In this document: in pieces, positions 10,753 to 31,382 of the stretch
Layout of the letters: each line of letters begins with the position of its first letter
How positions within the stretch are numbered: the stretch's first letter is position 1
From: Aureimonas sp. SK2
GTDB taxonomy: Bacteria; Pseudomonadota; Alphaproteobacteria; Rhizobiales; Rhizobiaceae
Length of the DNA: 64,000 nucleotides
Direction: 5' to 3'
Assembly (NCBI RefSeq): GCF_029813115.1
Contig: NZ_JAPZDS010000004.1
Location: 124,001 to 188,000 of the forward strand
Notes under the pieces: generated by a model
Databases searched by the model: none
The model's input: only the letters and a program-made list of their open reading frames with translations
What the model was told of the DNA's origin: nothing
Made by a program: the position numbers and the translations under genes

Positions 10753-11847
10753 TCACGGCGCGTTGCGGCGGGCGATCACGGCGACCGGCCCGCCACCGTC
10801 CGGCCCTTGGTGCTCCGCCCCGCCTGACACGAAAAGCTCCGTCGTGCCCGTGAGCCCGGCCAGCACACCGCCGACGAAGGCGCGCGCGTGGCGCGTCGCG
10901 GAGATGTCGCTGTCGTCGTTCATCGTGTGGCGCGCCCCGCGTACGAGGCCGGTGCGCGACGCCTCGGCCTTGGCGAGAAGCGCCTCGAAGCGCGCCCCGC
11001 CCGGCACGCCGAGTGCGTCGAGGCAGGCGCGCACGGGCGCCGCGTCGATCGCATCGCGCATCACCGCATGGCCGACCGCGAGCGGCCCGCGCCAGCTTCG
11101 GCTCATGCCGAGGACGAGGATCTCGTGGCCCATGAGTTCCACGCCGGCCGAGGTGCTGGCGCGATTCGAGAAGAGGGTCATGTCGCGACCGATCGCGCTC
11201 TCCGGCACGGCGGCGGGATCGAGTTCGCCGAGCGCGAGCGCGATGCCGAGCGCGCTCGCTCCGCGCGACAGGCCCATCGACTTCAGCGTGTCCGACACGG
11301 CGCAGGGCTGCCCCCGCGCCGCCGCTTCCGCGATACGCGCGCTGGTGAGGAGCGGGCATTTGACCTGCACGAAATGGACATCCGCAAGGTCCGAGATGCC
11401 GGCCGCCGCCATCGCCTCCAGCACGCCTGCCCGAACCACCTCCATCTGCGCGGCACGGCCGATCTCCTCGGGGAGGAGATCGCGGGTGACGCAGGAGCCG
11501 ATCGCCAGCGAGCCATCCGCGAAGGCCGGCCCGTCCCCGCTCTCGACCCGCTCGAAGACGAGCCAATGCGGGCTCAGCGCCCCTTCCGTGCCGCCGGACA
11601 TGACGAGCACGGCGCGCGCCGCCCGTTCGGCGCCGACATGGGTGGCGAGGAAGTCGGCGAGCGCGCGGGTGGCGAATCCCCGCGTGAAGTCGTTGACGCA
11701 TCCGTTGCCCTCGGTCTTGCCGAGAATGGCGAGGATGCCGGCCGGATCGAGCCTGCCTGCGGCGACGAGGCGCTCCAGCCCGGACACGTCGTCCGGGCCG
11801 GCAGCGGGAACGCGGTGGACGCGCGTCGAGGGATGGACGGGCGACAT
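10753..11847 (-). CDS. Cyanuric acid amidohydrolase/barbiturase (AtzD/TrzD family)
   Basis: This 364-residue enzyme is of the rare ring-opening amidohydrolase family, built from three tandem structural repeats that each give a Lys and a Ser. Repeat 1 has GKTEGNG (Lys44) and VMSGGTEG (Ser84). Repeat 2 has VKCPLLTS (Lys163) and the SRGASALG and RASTSAGVEL segments. Repeat 3 has AKAEAS (Lys293), RHTMNDDSDI and SGGAEHQGP (Ser341). Family members hydrolyse cyanuric acid to carboxybiuret, which decarboxylates to biuret, or barbituric acid to ureidomalonate. The presence of biuret hydrolase and allophanate hydrolase in the neighbouring operon favours cyanuric acid (inference). It is the last gene of the minus operon, 36 bases after the deaminase-type amidohydrolase. 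Confidence 0.93.
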   Translation of the reverse strand: MSPVHPSTRVHRVPAAGPDDVSGLERLVAAGRLDPAGILAILGKTEGNGCVNDFTRGFATRALADFLATHVGAERAARAVLVMSGGTEGALSPHWLVFERVESGDGPAFADGSLAIGSCVTRDLLPEEIGRAAQMEVVRAGVLEAMAAAGISDLADVHFVQVKCPLLTSARIAEAAARGQPCAVSDTLKSMGLSRGASALGIALALGELDPAAVPESAIGRDMTLFSNRASTSAGVELMGHEILVLGMSRSWRGPLAVGHAVMRDAIDAAPVRACLDALGVPGGARFEALLAKAEASRTGLVRGARHTMNDDSDISATRHARAFVGGVLAGLTGTTELFVSGGAEHQGPDGGGPVAVIARRNAP

Positions 11848-11883
11848 GAGGGCAGGCCCTCCTTTCGAAACGGTCGGTCGGGT

Positions 11884-13326
11884 TCAGCAGCAGCCCGGCG
11901 GGTGGAAATGCCGGGCCATCGCGGCTTCGAGATGCGGCAGCGCGGCGGCCAGATCGCGCGACGACCCCATGCCGTGGCGCACGGCGGCGAGAAGCTCTCG
12001 GGTGACGGCCCCGTGGTCGATGCCGGTGAGGCGTCCATTCAGGGCGATGCTCCGTCCGCCGACGATCACCTCGGCGATGTGGTGCCGGGTGCCGCGCGCC
12101 AGCAGGAGGCCGCCAGGCTCGGGCGCGATGGGGAGCCGGTCCTCGTCCAGCCGGTCCATGTCGAGGAGGAGAAGATCGGCGGGCTCGCCCTCGGCGAGGC
12201 GCCCGCCCCCCTCCTCGCCTAAGACGGCGGGGCGACCGTTGCGCACGGCCATGGCGAGGATCTCCGCGTCCCCGAGCGTCTCCTCGAAGCCCCAGCCGCG
12301 ATGGAGGAGATGGGCGAGGCGCATCTCGCGAAGCGCGTCGTCGTCCTCGTCCAGCCCCAGCCCGTCGAGGCCGAGCGCCACCCGGCAGCCCGCACGGACC
12401 ATGGCGGCGACCGGCGCGATGCCGGAGCGGATCTGGAGGTTGGAGCTCGTATTGACCGCGATCGTCGCGCCGCTCATCGCGATCAGTTCGAGTTCGTCGG
12501 GCCGCGCATAGGTGCAGTGGGCAAGCGTCAGGCGCGGCGACAGGAGGCCGATATCGGCGAGCCAGCGCACGAGCCCACCGGACTTCTCCTGGTGGTCGGC
12601 CCATTCGCGCTGGTAGCGCGACTCCAGAAGATGCATGTGGACGCGCCGCCCGGTCAGGGCCGACGCCTCGGCCACGGCGATCAGCAGTTCGTCGCTGCAC
12701 CATTGCGGACCGGTCGGCCCGTACTGGGCGCGGATGCCCTCGCCCAGCGCCGCGTCCACCTCGTCCACCAAGCGAATCTGCGTGGGCACGTCCGGCGCGG
12801 GGGTCGAGACGCGCCCGGCGATCTCCGCCCTTGGCCCCGGCGGAAGCGCGGCGAGGATCGGATCGGACGGACCGTAGACCAGGGGGTTGCGGTCGCGCAG
12901 GGCGACGGCGACGCCGATCCGCACACCGATGTCCCGCGCGGCGCGCGCGGTCGCGGCCGCCTCTTCCGACACGGAGGCGAAGGAGCGGAAGCGCGTGTGG
13001 TGGACCATCACGGTCGCCGCCCCGCCGAGCGCACTGCGCCCGAGCGAGGCGGCGGCGGCGAGATAGGGATCGATCGGGGGCAGCAGCGAGAGGTAGGCAA
13101 GCCAGAGTTCCAGCGGCTTGCCCGCCGCGCCGAAGGAACTCGCGCGGAGCGGGCGCGCGTGGTCGTGCGCGTTGACGAGGGCCGGCATGGCGAGAAGTGC
13201 GGACGGCGCCGCGCTCCGCTCCATCGACGCGATCCGCCCGCCTTCGAGGATCAGCGCCAGCGGGTCGCGCGAGCCGAAGCCATCAGTGCACAACGCGCCG
13301 AGGCAGGACATGCGCCTTGCCGTCAC
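11884..13326 (-). CDS. Metal-dependent amidohydrolase (AtzB/TrzA/guanine-deaminase-like)
   Basis: This 480-residue protein is of the amidohydrolase superfamily, cyclic-amidine deaminase branch. Metal ligands appear as NAHDH (His54, His56), HMHLLES (middle His with Glu), LAHCTY, and LGLDGLGLDED late in the barrel. Relatives deaminate or dechlorinate aromatic N-heterocycles (guanine, 8-oxoguanine, hydroxyatrazine, melamine series). Encoded directly upstream of the ring-opening enzyme, it is the best candidate to produce that enzyme's substrate, for example by removing the amino group from ammelide or a related triazine or pyrimidine. The exact substrate cannot be assigned. The C-terminus is unusual in ending FHPPGCC. 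It overlaps the binding-protein gene stop by four bases. Confidence 0.82.
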   Translation of the reverse strand: MTARRMSCLGALCTDGFGSRDPLALILEGGRIASMERSAAPSALLAMPALVNAHDHARPLRASSFGAAGKPLELWLAYLSLLPPIDPYLAAAASLGRSALGGAATVMVHHTRFRSFASVSEEAAATARAARDIGVRIGVAVALRDRNPLVYGPSDPILAALPPGPRAEIAGRVSTPAPDVPTQIRLVDEVDAALGEGIRAQYGPTGPQWCSDELLIAVAEASALTGRRVHMHLLESRYQREWADHQEKSGGLVRWLADIGLLSPRLTLAHCTYARPDELELIAMSGATIAVNTSSNLQIRSGIAPVAAMVRAGCRVALGLDGLGLDEDDDALREMRLAHLLHRGWGFEETLGDAEILAMAVRNGRPAVLGEEGGGRLAEGEPADLLLLDMDRLDEDRLPIAPEPGGLLLARGTRHHIAEVIVGGRSIALNGRLTGIDHGAVTRELLAAVRHGMGSSRDLAAALPHLEAAMARHFHPPGCC

Positions 13327-14363
13327 TGCGACGCCTCGCCCGCCGTCCGCTCGCCCCGTTCGGGCAGGAAGGAGCGGTCGAAGACCTCGGCCACCGCCGG
13401 CCGCCGCTCCAGCCCGTAGGCCTCGGCGATGGAGCCGATCGCGCGCTCAAGCCGGGTATCGTCGAGATCGCCGAAGCCGAGACGTCCGGTCTCCTCCGTT
13501 TCGATCACGCGGTCGAGCGCGAAGCGCATGCGCGCGGTTTCGGCTTCGGCGTTCACCAGCGGTTCCACGGCCGTCAGCGCCGCGACGCCGCGCGCCGGGT
13601 CGGCGGCGACTTCGATCATCGCGCGGTTGATCGCGTGCACCAGCCCGCGCACGGCCTCCGGCTTTTCGGTGGCAAGGCGCCGCGAGACCATGACGCCGTT
13701 GGAGTAGAGATCGAGCCCGTTCGCCGAAAAGTCGATCCAGCGGAAGCCCTCGTCGGGGTCCTGGCCCTGCGACAGGAGATTGACGTAGCTCGTCACGTTG
13801 AAGACGAGCGAGGCATCGACCTCGCCGCGCAGGAGCATCTGCTCCTGGAGGTTGGCCTGCATGTTGAGCACCTCGACGCCCGCCGGATCGACGGCGTTGA
13901 CCTTGAGGAGCAGCGGCAGGAGCTTGGTCGCGGCGGCCGAAGCCGGCCCGCCGACCTTGCGGCCGGACAGGTCCTTGACCGAGGCAATGCCGCTGTCGGC
14001 CTTGGTGAGGACCGAAAAGGGCGCGGCGTTGTAGACCTGGTAGACCATTACAGGCGCCGTGTCCGGCGCGCTCGCTGCCTGCTGGATCAGAGCGTTGATG
14101 TCACCGAAGCCGGCGTCGTAAGCGCCGGACGCGATGCGCGTGACGGTGGCCGCCGAGCCTTCGCCCTGGTCGATCGTCACGTCGAGCCCCTCGGCGTCGA
14201 AGTAGCCTTTCTCCTTGGCGAGGAGGAAGGGGCCGTGAACGCCCTGGTAGACCCAGTCCAGAGTGAAGCGGATCGGCACCTTGTCCGCGGCGGCGGCGGG
14301 AAGCGCGGCGGCGAGCGTCAAGGCGGCCAGAGCCAGCGCTCGGGCGAGCGGGCGATATGTCAT
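13323..14363 (-). CDS. NMT1/THI5-type ABC transporter substrate-binding protein
   Basis: This is a 346-residue periplasmic binding protein. Its cleavable signal peptide (RALALAALTLAAALPAAAA) precedes a mature start near DKVPIRFTLDWVYQG. The FTLDW, EGLDVTIDQGEGSAATV and GFGDINALI segments are typical of NMT1/THI5-like proteins that bind pyrimidines, riboflavin-like heterocycles, taurine or nitrate. It follows the permease gene after 30 bases, so this operon has ATPase, permease and binding protein in order. A clear paralogue lies at 18329-19357 in the same operon. Given the catabolic genes, a triazine, pyrimidine or related heterocycle is the likely ligand (inference). Confidence 0.9.
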   Translation of the reverse strand: MTYRPLARALALAALTLAAALPAAAADKVPIRFTLDWVYQGVHGPFLLAKEKGYFDAEGLDVTIDQGEGSAATVTRIASGAYDAGFGDINALIQQAASAPDTAPVMVYQVYNAAPFSVLTKADSGIASVKDLSGRKVGGPASAAATKLLPLLLKVNAVDPAGVEVLNMQANLQEQMLLRGEVDASLVFNVTSYVNLLSQGQDPDEGFRWIDFSANGLDLYSNGVMVSRRLATEKPEAVRGLVHAINRAMIEVAADPARGVAALTAVEPLVNAEAETARMRFALDRVIETEETGRLGFGDLDDTRLERAIGSIAEAYGLERRPAVAEVFDRSFLPERGERTAGEASQ

Positions 14364-14393
14364 GATCGAACCTTTCGGTAGGAAACCGGGCCG

Positions 14394-15164
14394 TCAGCCC
14401 ATGGCGAATTCGGTCTTGCGGTTGGCCCAGCCGGTGACGCGCTTCTCCACCAGCGAGAAGACGGCGTAGAGCGCCACGCCGAGGCCGGCGAGAATGAAGA
14501 GGCCGGCGAAGACCAAGGGCACGTTGAAGTTGGACGAGGCGATCAGCATCATGTTGCCGATGCCCCGGTTGGAGGCCACCGTCTCGGCGATCACCGTGCC
14601 GACGAAGGCGAGCGTGACCGCGACCTTCAGCGAGGCGAAGAGGTAGGGCATCGTGCGGGGCAGACCGACGTTAAAGAGGATGTCGGTGCGGCTCGCCTTC
14701 CAGGTCTTGAGCACGTCCTCCAGCTCCGGCTCCGTCGTCGCCAGGCCCGTCGCGACGTTCACCACCACGGGGAAGATCGAGATGATCATGGCCGTGATGA
14801 TGGCCGGCACCGTGCCCGCCCCGAACCAGAGGACGAGGATCGGCACGACCGCGACCTTGGGGATGGAGGAGAAACCGACCAGAAGCGGAAAGGCGACCTT
14901 GTAGGCGAAGCGCGAGGAGCCGATCACCATGCCGATGACGACGCCGAGCGAGACCCCGAGCGCGAAGCCGACGAGCGTCGTGTAGAGCGTCTGCACCGCG
15001 TGCGGCATGAGGGCCGGCCAGCGTGTCACGAGAACCGTGACGATCTCGCTCGGGCGCGGCAGCACGAGCGGGCTGATCGAGAAGGCGAGGCAGGCCGCCT
15101 CCCAGGCCCCGAAGAAGCCGAGGATGACGAGAAGCGAGCCGAGGCGTTCGCGGGACAGGGTCAT
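14394..15164 (-). CDS. ABC transporter permease (SsuC/TauC/ThiX-like)
   Basis: This 256-residue inner-membrane permease has about six helices. The EAA-loop region near residue 165 reads KTWKASRTDILFNVGLPRTM, the cytoplasmic contact for the ATPase. Close family members are the nitrate/sulfonate/taurine and thiamine-precursor permeases. It overlaps the preceding ATPase gene by four bases, which indicates translational coupling. With the ATPase and one or both NMT1-type binding proteins it should form a complete importer for the heterocycle degraded by this operon. Confidence 0.92.
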   Translation of the reverse strand: MTLSRERLGSLLVILGFFGAWEAACLAFSISPLVLPRPSEIVTVLVTRWPALMPHAVQTLYTTLVGFALGVSLGVVIGMVIGSSRFAYKVAFPLLVGFSSIPKVAVVPILVLWFGAGTVPAIITAMIISIFPVVVNVATGLATTEPELEDVLKTWKASRTDILFNVGLPRTMPYLFASLKVAVTLAFVGTVIAETVASNRGIGNMMLIASSNFNVPLVFAGLFILAGLGVALYAVFSLVEKRVTGWANRKTEFAMG

Positions 15165-16036
15165 GTCGTCGTCTCCTTAGCGGCGGTGCGGGCTGCGACG
15201 ATGAGGCTGCGAAGGCGATGGCCGAGAGCCACGAAGGCGGGCTCGGCCGTCGTGTCGATGGTACGGGGGCGTGCGAAGGGAACGTGCTCGTCCACGAGGA
15301 TGCGGCCGGGCCGCGCGCTCATCACGACGATGCGGTTGGCGAGGAAGGCGCTTTCACGCAGGTCGTGCGTCACGAGGAGGACGGTCGGGCGCGTGTCCAT
15401 CCAGAGCGACTGGAGGATCTCCCAGAGCTCCTCGCGGGTGAACTGGTCGAGCGCGCCGAAGGGCTCGTCGAGGAGAAGCAGCGTCGGCTCGTGGATCAGC
15501 GCGCGGCAGAGCGAGGCGCGCTGCTGCATGCCGCCCGAAAGCTGCCAGGGATAGCGGTCGCCGAAACCGCCGAGCCCGACCTTGGCGAGGAGCACCTCGG
15601 CCCGCTCGCGATACTCGCCCTTCCGCTTGGCCCGCCAGCTCTCCCTGAAGCCCGGCACGATCTTGAGCGGCAGCATGACGTTGTCGCGGATCGTGAGCCA
15701 GGGCAGCAATGTCGGGTTCTGGAAGGCCATGCCGATCCGCACGTCCTCGGCCCCGACCTCGCGTCCGCCGACGAAGACATAGCCGGACGTCGCCCGGATC
15801 AGCCCGGCGACGAGCTTGAGGATCGTCGACTTGCCGCAGCCGGACGGTCCCACCAGCGCCACGAAGTCGCCGGCAAAGACCTTGAGGTCGGTCGAGGACA
15901 GGGCCTGCACGGCTCCCTCGCCTCGTCCGTAGGCGAGCGCCGCCCCGTCGAACTGGATAAGGGGCGTCGGCGAGGACGGCACGGCCGGGTCGAAGGGTCG
16001 GGCGCCGGCGGTGTCGTTGACGGTCAGCATCTGCAT
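15161..16036 (-). CDS. ABC transporter ATP-binding protein (SsuB/TauB-like)
   Basis: This 291-residue ATPase subunit has Walker A GPSGCGKST, Q-loop GMAFQNPTLLPW, signature LSGGMQQRAS, Walker B LLLLDEPFGALD and switch His in VTHDLRES. The first ATG (16036) lies only three bases from a GAGGAGG site. A second ATG six bases later (16030, giving MLTVND) has the better spacing and may be the real start. The N-terminus carries about 25 extra residues before the core domain. It is the first gene of the transporter block and lies 17 bases after the cyclic amidohydrolase stop codon. Confidence 0.93.
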   Translation of the reverse strand: MQMLTVNDTAGARPFDPAVPSSPTPLIQFDGAALAYGRGEGAVQALSSTDLKVFAGDFVALVGPSGCGKSTILKLVAGLIRATSGYVFVGGREVGAEDVRIGMAFQNPTLLPWLTIRDNVMLPLKIVPGFRESWRAKRKGEYRERAEVLLAKVGLGGFGDRYPWQLSGGMQQRASLCRALIHEPTLLLLDEPFGALDQFTREELWEILQSLWMDTRPTVLLVTHDLRESAFLANRIVVMSARPGRILVDEHVPFARPRTIDTTAEPAFVALGHRLRSLIVAARTAAKETTT

Positions 16037-16053
16037 GCCCTCCTCCTCTTGTC

Positions 16054-17511
16054 TCACGCGACGGCGCGCGGGCGCGCGGGGGCCGGCGGGCGGAGCACGG
16101 CCTCCATCGTCTGGTCGAGATTGCGGGGCCTGGGGGCGGGCATTGCCTGCACCCGGCGCACCGAGCGGCCCCACCCGGCGGTGCCGGTGACGAGCTGCCG
16201 GTCGCGCATCGCGAAGCGCCCGCGAACCAGCGTGTGGACGGGAAGGCCCGTTGTCTCCATCCCCTCGAACGGCGTGATCTTGCCGCGAGAATGCAGCTCC
16301 GCCGCACGGATCACATGGCGGCGCTTCATATCCACGAAGGCGATGTCGGCGTCGGCACCCACGGTGAGCGAGCCCTTGCGCGGGAAAAGGCCGAAGGCAC
16401 GCGCGGGCGCGCCGGCCGACATGCGCACGTATTCGGCCAGCGAGAAGCGCCCATCGTTCACGGCGGTGAGCATCAGTTGCATCTGCGTCTCGACGCCGGG
16501 AAAGCCGCAATCGGCGGTCCAGATATCGTCGCGCCGCTTCTCGGCGGGGTCGTGCGGCGCGTGGTCGGTCGCGATCATGTCGATCGTTCCATCCTGAAGC
16601 GCCTCCCAGAGCGCCGCCTGGTGGTGCCTCTCGCGCACAGGCGGGTTGACGCGGATGATCGAGCCCAGCGTCTCGTAGGCCTCCTCGTCGAAGAGGAGGT
16701 AATGCGGGCAGGTCTCGCCCGTGATGTCGACGCCCCGCGCCTTCGCCTCGCGCAAGGGGCGCAGCTCGTCGGCCGACGAGATGTGGAGGATGTGGATGCG
16801 CGCGCCGGTCCATTCGGCGAGGATCGCCGCACGCGCCACCGCTTCCGTCGCGACGACGGCGGGCCGCGAGGCAAGATGGGCGAGCGGATCGTGCCGGCCC
16901 GCGGCCGTCAGCTTGCGCTGGCGCCAAGCCATGATCGACGCCGTCTCGGCATGGAGCGAGCAGCGCAGGCCGTGCTTCGCCAGGATTTCGAACCCTTCCA
17001 GCATCGCGCCCGTCGAGGGCGAGGGCAGGTTGCCGAACGTGTTGCCCATGAAGCACTTGAAGGCCGCGACCCCGCCCTCGATCAGCGCTTCGAGCTGGTC
17101 GATATTGTCTTCGGCGAGAAGCCCGTAGATGCCGAAGTCGACATGCGCCTTCCCGGCCGCCTCGAGCTTCAGCGCGAGCGCCTCGGGCGTGCCCGTCGGC
17201 GGGTTGGTGTTGGGCATCTCGAAGACGGTGGTGACGCCGCCCATGGCGGCGGCCGCCGTGCCCGTGCCCCAGTCCTCCTTGTGCGTGTAGCCGGGCTCGC
17301 GAAAATGGACATGCGCATCGATCGCACCGGGCAGGAGATGGAGCCCGGTGGCGTCGACGATCTCGCGCGCCGCCGGCATCGCCTCGGGCGTTCCGACAGC
17401 GACGATCGTGCCGTCACGGATGGCGAGCGCCGCATCCTGCGTGCCCGTCTCGCTGGCGATCGTCCCGTTGAGGACGACGAGGTCGACAAGGGGCTGGGTT
17501 TCGAGCGTCAT
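16054..17511 (-). CDS. Dihydroorotase/allantoinase-like cyclic amidohydrolase
   Basis: This 485-residue protein is of the cyclic amidohydrolase (dihydroorotase, allantoinase, hydantoinase) family, which opens five- or six-membered cyclic ureides. The metal centre is intact: DAHVHFREPG (two His), AAFKCFMGN (carbamylated Lys), SLHAET, HILHISS and ATDHAPH (Asp). The THKEDWGTGTAAAAMGGVTT and MPNTNPPT blocks are dihydroorotase/allantoinase-like. A Pro/Arg-rich tail after about residue 455 (PAPARPRAVA at the end) is extra. Start ATG at 17511 is 12 bases from the stop codon of the SDR gene. Its location inside the ring-opening operon suggests a catabolic rather than biosynthetic role, with hydantoin, dihydropyrimidine or allantoin as candidates. 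Confidence 0.88.
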   Translation of the reverse strand: MTLETQPLVDLVVLNGTIASETGTQDAALAIRDGTIVAVGTPEAMPAAREIVDATGLHLLPGAIDAHVHFREPGYTHKEDWGTGTAAAAMGGVTTVFEMPNTNPPTGTPEALALKLEAAGKAHVDFGIYGLLAEDNIDQLEALIEGGVAAFKCFMGNTFGNLPSPSTGAMLEGFEILAKHGLRCSLHAETASIMAWRQRKLTAAGRHDPLAHLASRPAVVATEAVARAAILAEWTGARIHILHISSADELRPLREAKARGVDITGETCPHYLLFDEEAYETLGSIIRVNPPVRERHHQAALWEALQDGTIDMIATDHAPHDPAEKRRDDIWTADCGFPGVETQMQLMLTAVNDGRFSLAEYVRMSAGAPARAFGLFPRKGSLTVGADADIAFVDMKRRHVIRAAELHSRGKITPFEGMETTGLPVHTLVRGRFAMRDRQLVTGTAGWGRSVRRVQAMPAPRPRNLDQTMEAVLRPPAPARPRAVA

Positions 17512-17522
17512 GGCGGGTCCTT

Positions 17523-18320
17523 TCAGAGCATGGCCCAGCCGCCGTCGACCGGCAGGTCGACGCCGGTGATCTGGCGGGCGGCGTCGCTGGCGAGGAAGAG
17601 GCAGGCATGGGCCACGTCCTCGTCGGTCGAGACGCGGCGAAGGGCGTAGTCCTCGGCGTGGCGCCGGGCGGCTTCCTCCTCCGAGATGCCGAGCCGCGCG
17701 GCCATTTCGGGCACGACCTTGGTGCGGAAACGAGGGCCGTCCACCATGCCGGGCGCGACGCAGTTGACGTTGACGTTGTGCGGGCCGGCTTCCAAAGCGA
17801 AGGACTTGGTGATGCCGCGCAAGCCCCATTTGGAAGCGGAATAGGCCATGCGCCCGGCCCGGCCGCGCATACCGAACGTGCCGCCGACATTGACGATGCG
17901 CCCGCCCCCGCCCGCGATCATCGCCGGCATCACCGCACGCATCGTGTTGAAGCAGCCGGCCATGTTGAGCGTGACGATCTCGTTGAACTCCTCGGCCGTC
18001 GTCTCCCAGCCCGTCTTGCCGATCGGGCCGGAGCCGCCCGCGACGTTGACGAGGACGTCGATGCGGCCGAAGGTCTCGCGGGTCCGCTCGGCCAGCGCCG
18101 CCGCGTCGCTCTCGCTCGTCACGTCGCAGGCGACGACGATCGCCTCCGCGCCGCGCGACCGCGCCTCTTGCGCCACCGGCTCGATCGCGCCCGTGTCGCG
18201 CCCGGCCAGCGCCAGCCGGCACCCTTCGCTCGCAAAGGCCCGGCTGACGGCCGCGCCCATCCCCTTGGCGGGACCGGTGATGACCACGGTCCGCCCCTTC
18301 AATCCGAGTTCCATGTCCAT
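17523..18320 (-). CDS. SDR family NAD(P)-dependent oxidoreductase
   Basis: This 265-residue classical short-chain dehydrogenase has the cofactor motif VVITGPAKGMGAA near residue 12, NVAGG near residue 93, catalytic Ser in NVGGTFG (an unusual replacement, where the family mostly has GS/SS here), and YSASKWGL with Tyr and Lys. The FabG-like C-terminus ends GVDLPVDGGWAML. It sits between a binding protein and a cyclic amidohydrolase gene, with gaps of eight and 11 bases, so it belongs to the operon. A reduction or oxidation step on a ring or on a malonate- or lactate-type fragment is possible. I do not assign a substrate. Confidence 0.88.
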   Translation of the reverse strand: MDMELGLKGRTVVITGPAKGMGAAVSRAFASEGCRLALAGRDTGAIEPVAQEARSRGAEAIVVACDVTSESDAAALAERTRETFGRIDVLVNVAGGSGPIGKTGWETTAEEFNEIVTLNMAGCFNTMRAVMPAMIAGGGGRIVNVGGTFGMRGRAGRMAYSASKWGLRGITKSFALEAGPHNVNVNCVAPGMVDGPRFRTKVVPEMAARLGISEEEAARRHAEDYALRRVSTDEDVAHACLFLASDAARQITGVDLPVDGGWAML

Positions 18321-18328
18321 ACCTGCTT

Positions 18329-19357: not shown

Positions 19358-19360
19358 GGT

Positions 19361-22480: not shown

Positions 22481-22499
22481 GCGGCGGGGATCGGCTGCG

Positions 22500-23606: not shown

Positions 23607-24520
23607 GCCTCGATCTCTGGAGCGTCCTCGTCGCGGTTCTGGGCGGCGCCATCCGCGTCTCCACGCCCTTCCTCTTCGTCAGCCTCGGCGAATGCGTGAC
23701 GGAGAAATCGGGCCGCATCAATCTCGGGCTGGAAGGCACACTGGTTTTCGGCGCGATGGCCGGCTACGGCGGATCGCTTCTGATTGGAAATCCCTGGGCC
23801 GGGGTGCTCGCCGCCGGCCTCGCCGGCACGCTGTTCGGGCTGCTGCACGGGGCGATCTGCTCGCTGAAAGGCGTCAACGACATCGCGGTCGGCATCGCGC
23901 TGATGATCTTCGGCACGGGCCTCGCCTTCTTCTTCGGCAAACCGCTGATCCAGCCGGCCGCGCCCATGCTGCAGGCGATCGACCTCGGCTTCTGGACGAG
24001 CGATCCGGCGCTGAGGGCCGCCCTCCAGATCAATCCGCTGTTCCTTTTGGGCATCGCGATCGCCTTCGCCATGGGCTTCGCCTTCCGCCGAACGCGGGTC
24101 GGGCTCATCCTTCGCATGGTCGGCGACAGCGCCGACGCCGCGCGCGCGATGGGTTACCCGATCGTGCCGGTGCGGATCGCCGCCACCATGTTCGGCGGCT
24201 TCATGGCCGGGGTCGGCGGGGCCTATCTCTCGCTCTACTATCCCGGCTCCTGGAACGAGGGCATCTCGTCGGGCCAGGGGCTGATCGCCGTCGCGCTCGT
24301 CATCTTCGCGCGGTGGAACCCCGTCGCCTGCTTCGGGGCGGCGCTCCTCTTCGGCGGGGCGGGCGCGCTCGGCCCCGCGCTCCAGTCGGTCGGCGTCACC
24401 GGCGGCACCTACCTCTTCTACGCCGCGCCGTACGTGCTGACGCTTCTCATCCTGATCCTCACCTCCTCGCCCCGCCGCGCCCTCGACGGCGCGCCGCGCG
24501 AACTTTCCATCACGAAATAG
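23603..24520 (+). CDS. ABC transporter permease 2 (nucleoside/simple-sugar type)
   Basis: This 305-residue second permease has the characteristic start ATPFLFVSLGE-like segment (here STPFLFVSLGECVTEKSG), RINLGLEGTLVFGAMAG and KGVNDIAVGIALMIFGTGL. The start overlaps the first permease stop. With the partner permease it forms the heterodimeric channel. Unusually, the ATPase gene is not next but comes after two hydrolase genes (26257-27825). Confidence 0.92.
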   Translation: MSLDLWSVLVAVLGGAIRVSTPFLFVSLGECVTEKSGRINLGLEGTLVFGAMAGYGGSLLIGNPWAGVLAAGLAGTLFGLLHGAICSLKGVNDIAVGIALMIFGTGLAFFFGKPLIQPAAPMLQAIDLGFWTSDPALRAALQINPLFLLGIAIAFAMGFAFRRTRVGLILRMVGDSADAARAMGYPIVPVRIAATMFGGFMAGVGGAYLSLYYPGSWNEGISSGQGLIAVALVIFARWNPVACFGAALLFGGAGALGPALQSVGVTGGTYLFYAAPYVLTLLILILTSSPRRALDGAPRELSITK

Positions 24521-24529
24521 GAGCCCGGC

Positions 24530-25546
24530 ATGAACGGCCTCGGCGGACTGAACAAATCGGACAACGGCGTCGTCATCGGCTGCGTGCAACTGCAGCTCCC
24601 GACGGTCGTCACCCCGGACGACCTGAAGCGCCAGACGGCGCGCATCGTCGAGATGGTGGGCAAGGCGCGGCGCAACTTGAGCACCATGGACCTCGTAGTC
24701 TTTCCGGAATACGCGCTCCACGGCCTGTCGATGGACACGAACCCCGCGATCATGTGCCGGGTGGACGGGCCGGAAGTGGAAGCCTTCCGGAAGGCGTGCC
24801 GCGACAACCGCATCTGGGGCTGCTTCTCCATCATGGAGCTGAACCCGGGCGGCATGCCCTACAACACCGGCCTCGTGATCGACGACACGGGCGAGATCGC
24901 GCTGAACTACCGCAAGCTCCACCCCTGGGTGCCGGTCGAGCCCTGGGAGCCGGGAAACCTTGGCATCCCCGTCATCGACGGGCCGAAGGGCGCCAAACTC
25001 GCCCTCATCATCTGCCACGACGGCATGTTCCCTGAGATGGCGCGCGAATGCGCCTACAAGGGCGCCGAAATCATGCTGCGCACGGCCGGCTACACGGCCC
25101 CGATCCGTGAAAGCTGGCGCTTCACCAACCAGTCCAACGCGTTCTGCAACCTGATGGTGACCGCCAATGTGTGTCTCACCGGCTCGGACGGCTCGTTCGA
25201 TTCCATGGGCGAGGGGATGATCGTGAACTTCGACGGCACGGTGCTTGCCCACGGCACCACCGGCCGGGTGGACGAGATCATCACGGCCGAAGTCCGGCCC
25301 GACCTCGTGCGGGAGGCGAGGCGCGGCTGGGGCGTCGAGAACAACATCTACCAGCTCGGCCATCGAGGCTACGTCGCGGTGATGGGCGGCGCGCAGGACT
25401 GCCCTTACACCTACATGCAGGACATGGTCGCCGGCTCCTATCGCCTTCCTTGGGAGGACGAGGTCAAGGTCGTGGACGGCACGTCCTGCGGCTTTCCCGC
25501 CCCGACGCGCCGCTATGGCGAAGTTCTTCCCCAAGCCGCCGAATAA
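24530..25546 (+). CDS. amiF: Formamidase (AmiF-type, nitrilase superfamily)
   Basis: This 338-residue enzyme is of the nitrilase superfamily, aliphatic amidase/formamidase branch. The catalytic triad is Glu60 (VVFPEYALHG), Lys129 (NYRKLHPW) and Cys162 (IICHDGMFPE). The spacing and the RTAGYTAPIRESWR and WGVENNIYQLGHRGYV segments match AmiF, which hydrolyses formamide to formate and ammonia, rather than AmiE. Length also matches (about 335). Located between the permeases and biuret hydrolase, it adds another ammonia-releasing step to the sigma-54 operon. A broader short-chain amide range cannot be excluded. Confidence 0.9.
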   Translation: MNGLGGLNKSDNGVVIGCVQLQLPTVVTPDDLKRQTARIVEMVGKARRNLSTMDLVVFPEYALHGLSMDTNPAIMCRVDGPEVEAFRKACRDNRIWGCFSIMELNPGGMPYNTGLVIDDTGEIALNYRKLHPWVPVEPWEPGNLGIPVIDGPKGAKLALIICHDGMFPEMARECAYKGAEIMLRTAGYTAPIRESWRFTNQSNAFCNLMVTANVCLTGSDGSFDSMGEGMIVNFDGTVLAHGTTGRVDEIITAEVRPDLVREARRGWGVENNIYQLGHRGYVAVMGGAQDCPYTYMQDMVAGSYRLPWEDEVKVVDGTSCGFPAPTRRYGEVLPQAAE

Positions 25547-25558
25547 GGAGCGAGAGCG

Positions 25559-26260
25559 ATGGACACGCTGAACGCCGCCGGTCTCACGATCGCTTCCACG
25601 CCCTACCGCTGGCCCTATGACGGGAGCCTCGCGCCGGAAACCACCGCCCTCGTCATCATCGACATGCAGACCGACTTCTGCGGCCCCGGCGGCTACGTCG
25701 ACAAGATGGGCTACGACCTCTCGCTGACCCGCGCGCCGATCGAGCCGATCCGCAGCCTTCTCGCCGCTATGCGCGACAAGGGCTATCCCATCATCCACAC
25801 GCGCGAGGGGCACCGGCCGGATCTGGCGGACCTTCCCGCCAACAAGCGCTGGCGCAGCCAACAGATCGGCGCCGGCATCGGCGATCCCGGCCCCTGCGGG
25901 CGCATCCTCGTGCGCGGAGAGCCGGGCTGGGAGATCATTCCCGAACTCGCGCCCCTGCCCGGCGAGGTCGTGATCGACAAGCCCGGCAAGGGCTCGTTCT
26001 GCGCCACCGACCTCGAGCTGATCCTCCATGCGCGGGGCATCCGCAACATCGTGCTGACCGGCATCACCACCGACGTCTGCGTCCACACGACCATGCGCGA
26101 GGCCAACGACCGCGGCTTCGAATGCGTGATCCTCGAGGACTGCTGCGGGGCGACGGACCGGGGCAACCACGAGGCCGCGATCAAGATGGTGACGATGCAG
26201 GGCGGCGTCTTCGGCGCGGTCGCTTCCAGCGCGGCACTGATCGAGGCGATCGGCGGATGA
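25559..26260 (+). CDS. biuH: Biuret amidohydrolase (isochorismatase superfamily)
   Basis: This 233-residue cysteine hydrolase closely resembles the rhizobial biuret hydrolase as I recall it: [58 protein letters not shown] and [17 protein letters not shown]. The catalytic triad is Asp35, Lys141 and Cys174. The enzyme converts biuret to allophanate and ammonia. In Rhizobium leguminosarum the gene neighbours a cyanuric acid hydrolase (established). Here it is separated from the AtzD homologue but sits in the divergent operon. The start is 12 bases after the formamidase stop, with AAGGAGCGAGAG just upstream, and the stop overlaps the ATPase start. Confidence 0.9.
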
Positions 26261-27825
26261 GCGCGCTCGCCGCCCTGCCCGACGAGGCGCCGGAGGCCCC
26301 CGAAACGCGGGGTCCCCGCCCGCTCTTGGAGGCCGTCGGCCTCACCAAGCGCTTCGGCGCCTTCACGGCGCTGGACGACGTGACGATCGCGCTCCATCCC
26401 GGCGAGTTCCACGCCCTGCTCGGCGAGAACGGGGCGGGCAAGTCGACGCTCGTCAAATGCATCCTCGGCTATTACCAGCCCGATGCCGGCGCGGTGGTGC
26501 TGGACGGGCGCGAAGTCGAGATCGCCTCCCCGCGCGACGCGCGCCGGCTCGGCCTCGGCATGGTCTATCAGCATTTCACGCTGGCGCCCGCCATGAGCGT
26601 CCTCGAAAACCTCGTGATGGCCGGCGCCACCGTGCCGCGCGTCGTCGACTGGAAGGCTGAGCGCCGCCGCCTCGCCGCCTTCATGGAGACGATGCCGCTC
26701 AGCGTGCCGCTCGACGTCGCGGTGGACCGCCTGTCGGCCGGCGAGCGGCAGAAGACCGAGATCCTGAAGCAGCTCTATCTCGGCTCCCGCGTCCTCGTCC
26801 TCGACGAGCCGACCTCGGTGCTGACGCCGAACGAGGCGGAGGAGGTCCTGTCCTTCCTGCGCACCCGCGCCTCCGAGACCGGCATGGCTGTCCTCCTCAT
26901 CACCCACAAGTTCGCCGAGGTCACGCGCTTCTGCGACCGGGTCAGCGTTTTGCGCAAGGGCCGCCCGGCCGGCGGCGGCCAGGTCTCGGACCTCGGCGTC
27001 GAGGAGATGGCGCGACTGATGATCGGCGAGCGCGAACTCGCCGAAGCACCGGCCCGCGCCACGTCGCCCGCAGTGCCCCCGGTGCTGCGCTTGGAACACC
27101 TGAACGCCGGCCTGCCAGGCAGCCGAGGCGCCATCGAGATCGACCGGCTCCATGTGGCGCCGGGCGAGATCGTCGGCATCGCCGGCATCTCGGGCAACGG
27201 CCAGACGACGCTGGTCGAGGTCCTGTCCGGCCAGACGCCGGTCGGCGGCGGCCTGCTGGAGGTCGGCGGCAAGCCCTACCGCGCGAGCCGCGCCGAGGCG
27301 CAGGCGCGAAAGGTGCGCTGCCTGCCGGAGGAGCCGCTCCGCAACGCCTGCGTCGGCCGCATGTCGGTGTCCGACAACCTCGCCTTCCGCACGTTCGACC
27401 GCAACGAGGCGGGCGCGCCGATCCGCCTCCTGGACCGCGCCCGGATGCGACGCGACGCCGAGCGGCTGATCGCGGCCTACTCGGTGAAGACGCAATCACC
27501 CGCCTCGCCCATCGCGACGCTGTCCGGCGGCAACGTCCAGCGCGCGGTGCTCGCCCGCGAGCTGCAGGGCGAGACCGACCTTCTCGTCGTCGCCAACCCG
27601 TGCTTCGGGCTCGACTTCGGGGCGGTCGCCGACATCCGCGCCCAGCTGATCGCCGCGCGCAACCGGGGCGCGGCCGTGCTCCTCGTGTCCGAGGATCTCG
27701 ACGAGGTGATCGCACTCTCTGACCGCATCCTGGTCCTCTTCGAGGGGCAGATCGTCATGGAGACGAAGGGCGGCGCGTCGGCCGACCCGTTCGCCATCGG
27801 CCGGGCCATGGCGGGGCACGCCTGA
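26257..27825 (+). CDS. ABC transporter ATP-binding protein, duplicated (nucleoside/sugar type)
   Basis: This 522-residue protein has two fused ATPase domains, as in BMP-type importers. Domain 1: [33 protein letters not shown] (signature) and VLDEPTSVL. Domain 2: degenerate Walker [10 protein letters not shown], signature [15 protein letters not shown] and Walker B region [10 protein letters not shown], where relatives mostly have QPTRGLD. The ATG overlaps the biuret hydrolase stop and the end overlaps the next gene by one base. It completes the importer started at 21365. Confidence 0.93.
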
Positions 27826-28487
27826 TGGCGATCGCCTCCGCCCTCCCCTTTCCCTTCGCGCTCGACACGAGCCGCGTCGGCCTCGTCGTCATCGACATGC
27901 AGCGCGACTTCCTCGAACCCGGCGGGTTCGGCGAGAGTCTGGGCAACGACGTGCGCCCGCTCCAGGCGATCGTGCCGACGGTGGCAACACTCATCGCGGG
28001 TTTCCGGCAGGCCGGGCGGCCGGTGATCCACACGCGCGAATGCCATGCGCCCGACCTTTCCGACTGCCCGCAGCCCAAGCTCGCGCGTGGCGCACCGGGA
28101 ATGCGCATCGGCGATCCCGGCCCCATGGGGCGCATTCTGATCCGGGGCGAGCCGGGCGCCGAGATCGTGCCCGAGCTCGCGCCCCTGCCCGGCGAGATCG
28201 TGCTCGACAAGCCCGGCAAGGGTGCCTTCCATGCGACGCCGCTGCAGGCCGAACTCCGCCGCCTCGGCCTGACGCAGCTCGTGCTTGCCGGCGTCACCAC
28301 CGAGGTCTGCGTCCAGACCACGATGCGCGAGGCCAACGACCGGGGCTACGAGTGCCTGCTCGCGCAGGACGCGACCGAAAGCTATTTCCCCGAGTTCAAG
28401 GCGGCGACGCTCGCGATGATCCGCGCGCAAGGTGCGATCGTCGGCTGGACCGCCGGGACCGACGCCATCCTGGAGGCCCTCGCATGA
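27825..28487 (+). CDS. Biuret-hydrolase-like isochorismatase hydrolase (paralogue)
   Basis: This 220-residue cysteine hydrolase is homologous to the biuret hydrolase two genes upstream. Shared blocks are [35 protein letters not shown] and [18 protein letters not shown]. Asp24, the Lys of DKPGKG, and the Cys of TEVCV form the triad. It differs in the lid and substrate region: the [15 protein letters not shown] segment of the paralogue is replaced by [19 protein letters not shown], and the EDCCGATD segment by QDATESYF. It therefore likely acts on another ureide or amide. RutB-type peroxyureidoacrylate hydrolase and ureidomalonate-type substrates are possibilities. Start overlaps the ATPase stop (TGATG). 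Confidence 0.85.
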
Positions 28488-28837
28488 GCTTTCCTGTCCA
28501 CTTTCCCGGCCTTGTCACCGGTGCGTTCCGCGACGCCGCCTTCGAGGCCTTCCGCGAGGGCGTCGAGATCGCCCATCTCCAGAGGCCGGACGGGCATGGC
28601 GGCCCGGCGCTCGCCCTCTTGCGCTATCGGCCAGGCGCCAGCGTGCCGCGCCACGAGCACATGGGTCTCGAGACCATCCTCGTTCTCGACGGCAGCCAGA
28701 GCGACGAGCGCGGGACTTATCGCGTGGGCGACGTCGTCCTCAATCCGCAGGGCAGCGTCCACAGCGTCTGGTCCGAGGAGGGCTGCACCGTCCTCATCTC
28801 CTGGGCGGCGCCTGTGCGCATCCTCGACGAAGCCTGA
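28484..28837 (+). CDS. Small cupin-domain protein (ChrR-like)
   Basis: This 117-residue single-domain cupin has metal-binding residues His57, His59 and Glu63 in [16 protein letters not shown] (motif 1) and His93 in [10 protein letters not shown] (motif 2). It overlaps the preceding hydrolase gene by four bases and precedes allophanate hydrolase by 21 bases. Related cupins include the anti-sigma factor ChrR domain and ureidoglycolate-type enzymes. A metal-dependent step in ureide metabolism or a sensor role is conceivable; function is not assigned. Confidence 0.85.
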
Positions 28838-28858
28838 CCCTTTCCGAAAGTCCCCGAC

Positions 28859-30655
28859 ATGATCCTGCCCGCCGTTCTCGACTTCGCCCGACTGCGCGCC
28901 GCCTATGCCGCAGGCCTCTCCCTCCCCGACATGGTGGGGGCGCTTCTCGAACGGCTGGCCGAGGCCGACCCCGCGATCTTCATCGCCCGCACCGCGCCGG
29001 ACGCTCTCCACGCCGCCACCGCCGAGCTTCTTGCGCGTGCGCCCGAGCCGAACTCGCTGCCGCTCTGGGGCCTGCCCTTCGCAGTCAAGGACAATATCGA
29101 CGTGGCGGGACTGCCGACCACCGTCGCCTGTCCCGACTTCGCCTACGAGCCCACGGCCGACGCACCGGTCGTGGCGCGGCTGAAGGCGGCAGGCGCCCTG
29201 GTGATCGGGAAGACCAATCTCGACCAGTTCGCCACCGGCCTCAACGGCACGCGTTCGCCTTACGGCGCGCCGCGCTGCGTCTTCGACGCCGCCTACGTGT
29301 CCGGCGGCTCGTCGTCGGGTTCGGGCGTCGCGGTGGCGGCGGGTCTCGCCGCCTTCTCGCTCGGTACGGATACGGCAGGGTCGGGCCGCGTGCCCGCCGC
29401 GTTCAACAACATCGTCGGGATCAAGCCCTCTCCGGGCCGCATCCCGACGGCGGGCGTGGTGCCGGCCTGCCGCTCGATCGACGTCGTGACCGTCTTCGCC
29501 GCCTCCGTCGCCGACGGGATCGAGGCGCGGCGGGTGGCCGAGGGGTATGAGGACAGCGATCCCTTCTCGCGACGCTTCGGCGAGGCGGCGTTGCCGGCAC
29601 GGCTTCGGCTCGGCGTGCCGGAGGCAGGCGAGCTGGAATTCTTCGGCAATGCGGCCTATCGCGCGCTCTATGAGGCGAGCATCGAGCGCGCCCGAGCGCT
29701 CGGTGCGGAGATCGTCGCCTTCGACTACCGCCCGTTCCGCGAGGCGGCGGCGCTGCTCTACGAAGGTCCCTGGGTGGCCGAGCGGCTCCATGCCGTGCAG
29801 CCCTTCATCGACGAGAAGCCGGAGGCGATGGACGCGACGGTTCGCACGATCATCGAGGGCGCGCGCAGCATGAGCGCGGTGGACGCCTTCGCGGGGCGCT
29901 ACCGGTTGGAGGCGCTGCGCCGCGAGGCCGAGCGGGAATGGGCTGATGTCGACGCCCTCCTCCTGCCGACCTCGCCGGATATCCAGACCGTCGAGGCGAT
30001 GCGGGGCGACCCGGTCGCCCTCAACGCCCGCTTCGGCCGCTACACCAACTTCGCCAATTTCTTCGGTTGCGCCGCGATCGCGGTGCCGGCCGGCTTCACG
30101 CCCGCCGGTCTGCCCTTCGGCGTTCAGCTCGTGGCGCCGTCCGACACGGACGAGGCCCTCGCCCCGTTTGCCGCCCGGCTCCATGCGGCGGCCGGCACCG
30201 GCGCGGGCCTCGACCGCGACCTGTGCCCGCCCGCAGTTGAGGACGTCCCAACGGAGACGATCGCCATCGCGGTTGTCGGTGCCCACCTCACCGGCATGCC
30301 CCTCAACAGCCAACTGACCACGCTCGGCGGCACGCTCTTGGCACAAGCGCGCACGGCGCCGGGATATCGCCTCTATGCCCTCGCCGGCACGACGCCGCCC
30401 AAGCCCGGACTCGTGCGCGAGCCGGGTCTTGCGGGACCGGGGATCGAAGTGGAGATCTGGCAGCTCTCGCCGGCGGCCTTCGGCCGCTTCGTTTCGGCCA
30501 TTCCCCAGCCGCTCGGTATCGGCAAGCTCATTCTGGACGACGGGTCCGAGGTCTCCGGCTTCCTCTGCGAGCCGGCGGCGCTCGCGGGCGCTACGGAGAT
30601 CACCGAATTCGGCGGCTGGCGGAACTACGTTGCGTCCAGGGCCAGGGCCGCCTGA
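28859..30655 (+). CDS. atzF: Allophanate hydrolase (AtzF-type)
   Basis: This 598-residue enzyme hydrolyses allophanate to ammonia and CO2. Residues 1-450 form the amidase-signature domain: Lys77 in FAVKDNIDVAG, the cis-Ser in VSGGSSSGSGVA near residue 152, and nucleophile Ser175 in GTDTAGSGRVPA. Residues about 470-598 form the C-terminal domain specific to allophanate hydrolases (GAHLTGMPLNSQL, ALAGTTPPKPGLVRE). Length matches AtzF/DUR1-type proteins of about 600 residues. It completes the route from biuret. It is followed after 10 bases by the GntR gene. No urea carboxylase gene is nearby, which fits a biuret rather than a urea route. Confidence 0.94.
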   Translation: MILPAVLDFARLRAAYAAGLSLPDMVGALLERLAEADPAIFIARTAPDALHAATAELLARAPEPNSLPLWGLPFAVKDNIDVAGLPTTVACPDFAYEPTADAPVVARLKAAGALVIGKTNLDQFATGLNGTRSPYGAPRCVFDAAYVSGGSSSGSGVAVAAGLAAFSLGTDTAGSGRVPAAFNNIVGIKPSPGRIPTAGVVPACRSIDVVTVFAASVADGIEARRVAEGYEDSDPFSRRFGEAALPARLRLGVPEAGELEFFGNAAYRALYEASIERARALGAEIVAFDYRPFREAAALLYEGPWVAERLHAVQPFIDEKPEAMDATVRTIIEGARSMSAVDAFAGRYRLEALRREAEREWADVDALLLPTSPDIQTVEAMRGDPVALNARFGRYTNFANFFGCAAIAVPAGFTPAGLPFGVQLVAPSDTDEALAPFAARLHAAAGTGAGLDRDLCPPAVEDVPTETIAIAVVGAHLTGMPLNSQLTTLGGTLLAQARTAPGYRLYALAGTTPPKPGLVREPGLAGPGIEVEIWQLSPAAFGRFVSAIPQPLGIGKLILDDGSEVSGFLCEPAALAGATEITEFGGWRNYVASRARAA

Positions 30656-30665
30656 TACTGCCGCA

Positions 30666-31382
30666 ATGACTAAGCATACGAAGCGCACGCAGGCGGACAT
30701 GATCCGTGAGATCCTGTCGGATCGTATCGTCCACGGCATCCTGCGGCCCGGCGAGGCGCTGGACGAGATGGGCCTGGCGGCAGAGTTCGGCGTCTCGCGC
30801 ACACCGATCCGCGAAGCCCTCCGCCAGCTTGAATCGATCGGGCTCGCCCGCTCGCGGCCGCATCGCGGCACGATTGTTACCAACGTGTCGGAGAGCGAGC
30901 TCCATGACATCTTTCGGGTCATGGGGGAACTGGAGGCGCTGTGCGCGCGGCTGTCCGCGGAGGCCATGACGCCTGCCGAGTGCGAGGCGCTCTCGCACCT
31001 CCATGCGCGCGGCGCCGAGTTCGTGCTGAGCGGCGACGTCGATGGCTATCGAGCGCACAACGAACAGTTCCACGATGCGCTCTATGCCGGCTCCCACAAC
31101 AGCTTCCTGGAGGAAACCACCCGCTCGGTGCGCCGCCGCCTCGCTCCGTTCCGCCGCATGCAGTTCGAGGCGCTGCACCGCATCGCGAATTCGCAAAGGG
31201 AGCACGGCGATGTCGTCGCAGCCATCCTGGACGGCGACGCGGATCGTGCGGCAGACGCGATGCACCGTCACATGTCCATCGTAGAAAGGGCCGTCGACCG
31301 CGTTTCGCCGACGCCTCATACCGCTCGCTCGGAACGGGCCCCGTCGATCGCCGCAGCACGATCGGATTCAGGGTCCTTCTGA
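30666..31382 (+). CDS. GntR-family (FCD/FadR subfamily) transcriptional regulator
   Basis: This 238-residue regulator has an N-terminal winged helix with GEALDEMGLAAEFGVSRTPIREALRQLE (residues about 33-60) and a C-terminal all-helical FCD effector domain with metal-binding His residues (NEQFHDALYAGSHN, HRHMS near the end). The ATG at 30666 gives the normal N-terminus; the frame is open further upstream but overlaps allophanate hydrolase. As last gene of the operon it probably gives feedback control by a pathway intermediate. A perfect hairpin follows eight bases after its stop codon. Confidence 0.9.
   Translation: MTKHTKRTQADMIREILSDRIVHGILRPGEALDEMGLAAEFGVSRTPIREALRQLESIGLARSRPHRGTIVTNVSESELHDIFRVMGELEALCARLSAEAMTPAECEALSHLHARGAEFVLSGDVDGYRAHNEQFHDALYAGSHNSFLEETTRSVRRRLAPFRRMQFEALHRIANSQREHGDVVAAILDGDADRAADAMHRHMSIVERAVDRVSPTPHTARSERAPSIAAARSDSGSF

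Follow-up and report, generated by a model that had tools for sequence, protein, structure and literature searches.

The closest described relatives of the locus analysed here come from pathways for the degradation of cyanuric acid, biuret and triuret. LysR-type regulation through AtzR is known for Pseudomonas sp. ADP, and a LysR gene is likewise present in Aureimonas sp. SK2, a 64,000-nucleotide stretch of which (contig NZ_JAPZDS010000004.1, positions 124,001 to 188,000, hereafter the window) carries the locus. The atzDGEHF operon of strain ADP (PMC6219798) shares AtzD and AtzF with the window but also includes AtzE, whereas no gene of the window genome exceeded the AtzE cut-off (best score 267.2 bits, cut-off 425.75) and BiuH is found instead. 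Herbaspirillum BH-1 (TrtA, TrtB, BiuH and AtzF) is described as following the same chemical route, with carboxybiuret as the common intermediate (PMC7948467); for its TrtB, a small cupin of the window is a positional candidate. On pRL10 of Rhizobium johnstonii (leguminosarum) 3841, bmpA, two permease genes, a formamidase gene, biuH, an ATP-binding cassette (ABC) ATPase gene, a trtA-like cysteine hydrolase gene and a cupin gene stand in the same order as in the window. There, however, atzD lies between biuH and the ATPase gene and a divergent gntR lies upstream, while in the window atzD belongs to another operon, and atzF and gntR follow the cupin gene. The 21 kb gene table of pRL10 has no atzF, and PMC5806882 gives none close by, yet the operon contains AtzF according to PMC7948467. 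PMC12625717 describes a comparable gene group, in which bmpA-nupABC is accompanied by trtA, biuH and atzF.

The source genome (4.56 Mb) is in 89 contigs, the window lying on contig C34. Positions 10753..31382 of the window hold two divergent operons, with nine genes on the minus strand, a LysR gene on the plus strand and ten further plus-strand genes (Table 1), and the ends of the terminal open reading frames fall exactly on 10753 and 31382. Within each operon the genes overlap or are separated by at most 36 bases, and 21 translations (the 20 operon and LysR genes plus a neighbouring LOG gene, whose translated stretch did not open with a start codon) contained no inner stop codon. The operons are regarded as real beyond chance because AtzD, BiuH and AtzF exceed their family cut-offs and the gene order is conserved elsewhere. 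The two-operon arrangement reported by a sequence-only reading of the window is thereby confirmed: AtzD ends one operon, and BiuH and allophanate hydrolase lie in the opposite one, across the LysR gene. The chain from cyanuric acid through (carboxy)biuret and allophanate to ammonia and CO2 is also encoded as that reading had it, AtzD, BiuH and AtzF all scoring over their cut-offs. The minus-strand operon also encodes a deaminase-type amidohydrolase (AH1), a dihydroorotase-like cyclic amidohydrolase (DHO) and an SDR oxidoreductase, which it had rightly placed outside the classical route. The genes that it named are real, but its inventory missed TrtA, the formamidase, the cupin, the GntR regulator and the isochorismatase-fold hydrolase IHL1, and a DUF3830 gene just outside the locus. 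The locus is best explained, with a probability of roughly 0.7, as a nitrogen-scavenging island of two operons that release ammonia from cyanuric acid, biuret and triuret, with SDR, DHO and IHL1 forming a second branch.

For comparison, the best 80 of 573 AtzD relatives, picked by similarity to the window, were assigned to locus types. Type A has AtzD inside a triuret/biuret operon and occurs in genera such as Jiella, Rhizobium and Agrobacterium. Type B, a recurrent alphaproteobacterial module, is an AtzD locus with most of the genes for LysR, SDR, DHO, an ABC ATPase and permease, the substrate-binding protein SBPb and AtzD, those for IHL1, AH1 and a further binding protein (SBPa) being optional; it was found in 27 of the 80 loci. 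This count comprises 26 loci with DHO of more than 55% identity, from a scan of 81 loci including L001, plus L081; the 4 kb contig L044, which has some of the module genes, was left out. The window joins a type-B module to a type-A operon without atzD. The sequence-only reading knew of no parallel for the two-operon, two-transporter arrangement, but it is not unique: the plus-strand operon resembles that of pRL10, the module of the minus strand recurs, and besides the window 4 of the 27 type-B genomes have BiuH less than 15 kb from AtzD (L002, L003, L031 and L081). Of these, L003 is from the culturable Aureimonas jatrophae DSM 25025. The comparison of gene order with related genomes that it had called for shows that both operon types recur. 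The less known part is the type-B module; the plus-strand operon is of a known kind.

By its gene content the plus-strand operon is one for triuret as well as biuret, which would extend the substrate range beyond cyanuric acid. Functions have been published for BiuH (PMC5806882) and TrtA (PMC7948467). The product of 27825-28487 scored 296.6 bits against the TrtA structure 6xix and 212.5 against the best BiuH structure, and it failed the BiuH model NF050097 (244.2 bits, cut-off 370); a second BiuH was therefore ruled out for this gene. Six positions are reported to discriminate TrtA (F35, N41, A134, E160, Y187, I205) from BiuH (Y, Y, S, D, T, V in the same order; PMC7948467), and in alignments read by eye all the TrtA letters were found in 27825-28487 and all the BiuH letters in 25559-26260. 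TrtA and AtzD both yield carboxybiuret according to the same source, so that both may feed BiuH and AtzF. The small cupin, whose position matches that in the Rhizobium 3841 operon, is a possible carboxybiuret decarboxylase, a candidate suggested by gene position; a cupin was present in 8 of 20 short trtA stretches (L212-L231). An AtzG-like gene in the gap 28487-28859 was ruled out, since the gap carries the cupin. In two loci outside the class (L232 and L235) an AtzH-like small protein, as read by eye, follows trtA in the place of the cupin.

AtzD reached 533.6 bits on the cyanuric acid hydrolase equivalog NF052395 (cut-off 360). Its best match among solved structures was the cyanuric acid hydrolase of Azorhizobium caulinodans (4nq3, 432 bits), 180 bits above barbiturase 5hwe (252 bits). 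Three lysines, three arginines and three serines of the 4nq3 active site are all present in the window protein (K44, R56, S84, K163, R195, S233, K293, R322 and S341), the positions other than Arg52, Arg188, Arg314, Ser79 and Ser226 of 4nq3 being ones that we take to belong to this site. Those five are given as active-site residues in PMC4051656, where kcat and Km of the A. caulinodans enzyme were also measured, the Km of about 370 uM being tenfold above that of AtzD from strain ADP. By score, the window protein is thus supported as a cyanuric acid hydrolase. A role as barbiturase in the oxidative breakdown of pyrimidines is highly improbable: barbiturases belong to the same protein family, and a homologue resembling the URC1 / GTP cyclohydrolase II protein of pyrimidine catabolism, as read from the sequence, stands near the type-B module in 4 of the 27 loci (L020, L034, L042 and L054), but both the equivalog score and the 432 against 252 bits speak against a barbiturase, which was rejected on these grounds.

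In a tree of 84 AtzD sequences, the type-B members were clustered (9 changes, of which starred branches require at least 5; none of 500 shuffles had so few), and the window AtzD grouped with four other Aureimonas rows, all of type B. Its closest relatives were those of Aureimonas sp. AU22 (88%) and A. jatrophae (86%). The Azorhizobium hydrolase nests among type-B sequences, pairing with the type-B AtzD of Xanthobacter (support 100/99) within a four-row type-B group of Xanthobacteraceae (100/100). AtzD and the module have been joined, or separated, more than once. Low-scoring members of the family were also seen: two adjoining genes of 227 and 194 bits, possibly barbiturase-like, at G011:C5:3058-5163, in a genome that also carries three ordinary AtzDs, and two genes 6 kb apart in G613.

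In the pathway proposed, BmpA, its two permeases and the two-domain ATPase would import ureides. TrtA would convert triuret to carboxybiuret, which would lose CO2, spontaneously or by the action of the cupin, to give biuret; BiuH would hydrolyse biuret to allophanate, and AtzF would convert allophanate to ammonia and CO2. The NMT1-type ABC transporter, with two binding proteins, may import a heterocycle, and AtzD would open cyanuric acid to carboxybiuret, which enters the same route. AH1, encoded beside AtzD, is probably a deaminase for a ring with an amino group, which might for instance convert ammelide to cyanuric acid; it reached no NCBIfam cut-off. The SDR, DHO and IHL1 would carry out a reductive step, the opening of a carboxylate-bearing dihydro ring and the cleavage of the carbamoyl product, a sequence that resembles reductive pyrimidine catabolism with dihydroorotase-type substrate recognition. 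The roles of AtzD, BiuH, TrtA and AtzF are supported by homology and conserved residues; we infer the transport substrates, the functions of AH1 and the cupin, and the whole of the second branch.

The substrate clues for this branch come mainly from DHO, which aligns over its full length with dihydroorotases, allantoinases and hydantoinases, its closest PDB score being to an allantoinase and its substrate-site residues being of the dihydroorotase type. In dihydroorotase, the arginine of HxHxR and the asparagine of MPN bind the ring carboxylate. The window protein carries the motifs HVHFREPG, MPNT and DHAPH, while those of the allantoinases are HFNEPG, MPLN and DHSPS in 3hm7 and HISEPG, MPLN and DHSPC in 3e74 and 8hfd. 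Arg71, Asn101 and DHAPH were kept in 61 of 61 DHO rows of at least 50% identity, an alignment in which some loci are repeated and alignments of fewer than 300 residues are excluded, and both Arg71 and Asn101 were absent from the five best PDB relatives. Because these dihydroorotase-type residues are conserved, a substrate with a ring carboxylate is suggested rather than a plain hydantoin or barbiturate. The wider range that the sequence-only reading had proposed (other s-triazines, barbiturates or hydantoins) stays hypothetical. A housekeeping dihydroorotase was ruled out for DHO, as a PyrC over its cut-off is encoded on contig C12; pyrB-pyrX, as read from the sequence, is on contig C23. The SDR has an arginine after the second strand in the 12 commonest patterns (51 rows of at least 58% identity), a feature that usually goes with NADP(H) in SDRs, and IHL1 scored 110.5 bits on the RutB model and 84.6 on that of BiuH, both far below cut-off. 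Taken together, the features of the three proteins suggest that a carboxylated ring is reduced and opened and the carbamoyl product hydrolysed.

A different explanation is that DHO is a plain allantoinase or hydantoinase and that the minus-strand operon degrades allantoin or hydantoins towards glyoxylate, AtzD merely sharing the transporter. DHO does pass the TIGR03178 allantoinase cut-off (382.5, cut-off 357.85), and its closest PDB relative is the allantoinase 3hm7. By score its nearest models are those of dihydroorotase and allantoinase; it exceeds the looser dihydroorotase subfamily cut-off of TIGR00857 (336.1, cut-off 279.05), and it stays below those of the other allantoinase models PRK06189 (376.9, cut-off 631) and PRK08044 (290.3, cut-off 688) and of the PRK09060 dihydroorotase model (402.5, cut-off 482). 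Moreover, lysR-SDR-DHO stands near relatives of the ATP-dependent hydantoinase genes HyuA/HyuB in L112, L117 and L118, and in the first of these, from Novosphingobium, beside malate synthase as well, an enzyme that uses glyoxylate. The conserved Arg71, Asn101 and DHAPH, however, are missing from 3hm7, 3e74 and 8hfd, and an SDR is not known to take part in classical allantoin breakdown, which also counts against this explanation. It is considered unlikely, and the opening of a carboxylated ring is preferred.

The association of DHO with AtzD was examined in an even set of 397 genomes of the order Hyphomicrobiales, with a DHO threshold of E 1e-140 or better. DHO was found in 25 genomes and an AtzD-family gene in 67, with both in 23; thus, an AtzD-family gene accompanied DHO in 23 of 25 genomes and occurred in 44 of the 372 others (Fisher p 1e-17, uncorrected for kinship). 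With the own genome removed, the figures are 22 of 24 and 44 of 372 (p 6e-17, likewise uncorrected). One of the 23 two-gene genomes, G613, has low-scoring AtzD-family genes only. DHO itself is rare, occurring in 6 of 385 genomes of the class (E 1e-100) and 4 of 398 of the phylum (E 1e-140), the own genome included in each. The 66 AtzD loci examined in the order sample correspond to 67 of 80 AtzD places; those left out comprise the place in the window, six incomplete pieces (G765, G618 and G782), the low-scoring one of G609 and two of G613, and extra copies in G741, G717 and G685. Sixteen of these 66 loci have BiuH or TrtA nearby, and six have DHO. The similarity scan that covered L139 and L146 left out L115, and L130, L131 and L140 were omitted as repeats.

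The module itself seems to consist of two functional units, the transporter, AH1 and AtzD forming one and the SDR and DHO the other, since AH1 and the ABC genes accompany AtzD in the absence of DHO and lysR-SDR-DHO occurs in the absence of AtzD. In L026, L179 and L180, AH1 is the immediate neighbour of AtzD and the stretch has no DHO, and SsuB/SsuC-type ABC genes like those of the window (54-66% identity) are near AtzD, again with no DHO in the stretch, in L079 and L235. In L235 a relative of the window permease (57%) is two genes from AtzD. The ABC genes of L235 and L079 are candidates for a cyanuric acid transporter. Remoter cyclic amidohydrolases, 33-38% identical to DHO, were found near AtzD in six loci (L028, L060, L066, L161, L172 and L174). 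No description of the type-B module was found in the literature searched, whose scope left out most subscription journals; the Polaromonas plasmid pE10SP1 is described as carrying both a cyanuric acid hydrolase and a dihydroorotase.

The two operons might also be neighbours by chance and not be used jointly. In 23 of the 27 type-B genomes, either BiuH lies outside a 15 kb range of AtzD or no close BiuH was found, which would fit such a view, but the adjacency is repeated in Aureimonas, Alexandriicola and Histidinibacterium, and the 13 type-B genomes with a close BiuH (at least 77% identity) have a single AtzD-family gene each. A chance neighbourhood is accordingly rated as distinctly unlikely, and joint use of the two operons is preferred.

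Several further findings weigh against the proposed island. The nine active-site positions of AtzD, invariant in 84 of 84 rows, do not tell a hydrolase from a barbiturase; in the tree of the same 84 rows, the type-B AtzDs do not form one clade and the window AtzD falls outside the group containing 4nq3. One type-B locus, L081, has the module and AtzD without a DHO match, and the module occurs without AtzD in Azospirillum ramasamyi (L113) and also in L112, L117 and L118. Among the Hyphomicrobiales AtzD loci, 44 of 66 have neither BiuH or TrtA nor DHO of at least 50% identity in the stretch, although two of them (L188 and L191) are short contigs on which further genes of the type-A set are present. 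No cupin was found beside trtA in any of eight loci outside the class (L232-L239), nor in the eight Hyphomicrobiales trtA stretches L224-L231. Fourteen of the 27 type-B genomes lack a BiuH of at least 77% identity (best at most 56%); several of these are draft metagenome-assembled genomes, and the named isolates among the 14 include Azorhizobium oxalatiphilum, Aquabacter spiritensis, Xanthobacter aminoxidans, Rhodoplanes elegans and R. tepidamans. The module therefore need not end in biuret hydrolysis. IHL1 is present in 8 of these 14 loci and absent from 6, and it could replace BiuH in BiuH-poor loci.

One speculative candidate for the substrate of the second branch is oxonate (5-azaorotate), which fits both the carboxylate-type DHO and the triazine enzyme AtzD next to it. 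On this explanation the minus-strand operon would be dedicated to breaking down oxonate or a similar carboxylated s-triazine. The SDR and DHO, the latter an allantoinase-like enzyme with dihydroorotase-type substrate recognition, would act on the triazine carboxylate and AtzD would open its relative cyanuric acid; this operon and the triuret/biuret operon between them would recover products of urate oxidation. Molybdenum hydroxylases can hydroxylate such rings, and a large subunit of this type lies directly between AtzD and DHO in 2 of the 6 DHO loci (L136 and L139). Besides the dihydroorotase-type carboxylate residues of DHO and its co-occurrence with AtzD, it is relevant that oxonate is a product of urate oxidation. 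Triuret and cyanuric acid are described as further such products (PMC7948467). On the other side, a scan of 21 genes from the two operons and their immediate border gave no molybdenum hydroxylase, and the literature searched gave no on-topic link of oxonic acid, oteracil or oxonate to cyanuric acid. Both the oxonate pathway and the wider role in urate salvage are for these reasons quite unlikely, and the preferred second branch is stated for a carboxylated ring in general. Molybdenum hydroxylase large subunits are also near DHO in L142, L146 and L120, and the five loci together suggest a possible third context of AtzD; the assignments are based on Pfam domains (L136 and L120), on NCBIfam relatives (L142 also) and on similarity (L139 and L146).

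Table 1. Genes of the two divergent operons and an adjacent gene, in window coordinates; the minus-strand operon is listed in the order of transcription, from IHL1 to AtzD
Predicted product	Position	Strand	Basis
IHL1, isochorismatase-fold cysteine hydrolase, RutB-like	19361..20188	-	PF00857; best PDB RutB 8bkd
SBPb, second NMT1-type substrate-binding protein	18329..19357	-	PF09084 1.5e-43
SDR oxidoreductase	17523..18320	-	PF13561, PF00106
DHO, cyclic amidohydrolase, dihydroorotase-type carboxylate-binding residues Arg71, Asn101	16054..17511	-	TIGR03178, PRK09060 scores; residues
ABC ATPase (SsuB/TauB type)	15161..16036	-	PF00005
ABC permease (SsuC/NrtB type)	14394..15164	-	PF00528
SBPa, NMT1-type substrate-binding protein	13323..14363	-	PF09084 9e-35
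AH1, amidohydrolase, deaminase / TRZ-ATZ chlorohydrolase superfamily	11884..13326	-	PF01979
AtzD-family cyanuric acid hydrolase	10753..11847	-	NF052395; PDB 4nq3; active-site residues
LysR-type regulator, divergent from minus-strand operon	20290..21207	+	PF03466, PF00126
BmpA substrate-binding protein	21365..22480	+	PF02608 7.1e-34
ABC permease (nupB-like)	22500..23606	+	PF02653 in frame 22458-23606
ABC permease (nupC-like)	23603..24520	+	PF02653 in frame 22559-24520
Formamidase-type nitrilase-fold amidase	24530..25546	+	NF009803 577.9 bits, cut-off 406
Biuret hydrolase BiuH	25559..26260	+	NF050097 427.1 bits, cut-off 370; best PDB 6azo (Rhizobium BiuH structure)
ABC ATPase, two ABC domains (nupA-like)	26257..27825	+	PF00005, two stretches
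Triuret hydrolase TrtA	27825..28487	+	best PDB 6xix (TrtA structure)
Small cupin after trtA	28484..28837	+	PF12973 1.7e-19
Allophanate hydrolase AtzF, amidase + C-terminal domain	28859..30655	+	TIGR02713 770.7 bits, cut-off 511.05; PF21986 1.5e-48
GntR/FCD regulator	30666..31382	+	PF07729, PF00392 in frame 30375-31382
DUF3830 protein, beyond LOG gene	9669..10082	-	PF12903 E 4.8e-29

Between AtzD and the DUF3830 gene, and on the opposite strand to both, lies a LOG-type lysine decarboxylase-like gene (10100-10726, plus strand, PF03641); LOG-like genes are also near the module in L002, L003, L006, L018, L019, L035 and L123. DUF3830 recurs near DHO or AtzD in L113, L114, L116, L121, L123, L130, L133 and L137. 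A scan of 10000-11000 gave no promoters or terminators, and a simple palindrome scan gave no LysR motif common to both intergenic stretches. Elsewhere, the window encodes a bacteriorhodopsin-like protein (3150-3857, plus strand, PF01036 9.5e-42) and an EptA/EptB-type phosphoethanolamine transferase (55319-56977, plus strand, PF08019 and PF00884).

The occurrence of a cyanuric acid hydrolase in bacteria that were never exposed to herbicides raises, in our view, the question of why they have such an enzyme; the age of the AtzD family and its revival by man-made triazines are touched on in PMC6557486 and PMC4051656. As AtzD is tied here to an SDR, a carboxylate-type cyclic amidohydrolase and a transporter and regulator of its own, this question becomes testable with few substrates. 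Triuret, which the second operon of the same organism seems able to process, is a product of urate oxidation (PMC7948467). If the module should prove, against the odds, to act on oxonate or a similar carboxylated triazine, cyanuric acid hydrolases would gain a natural, not a man-made, source of substrate.

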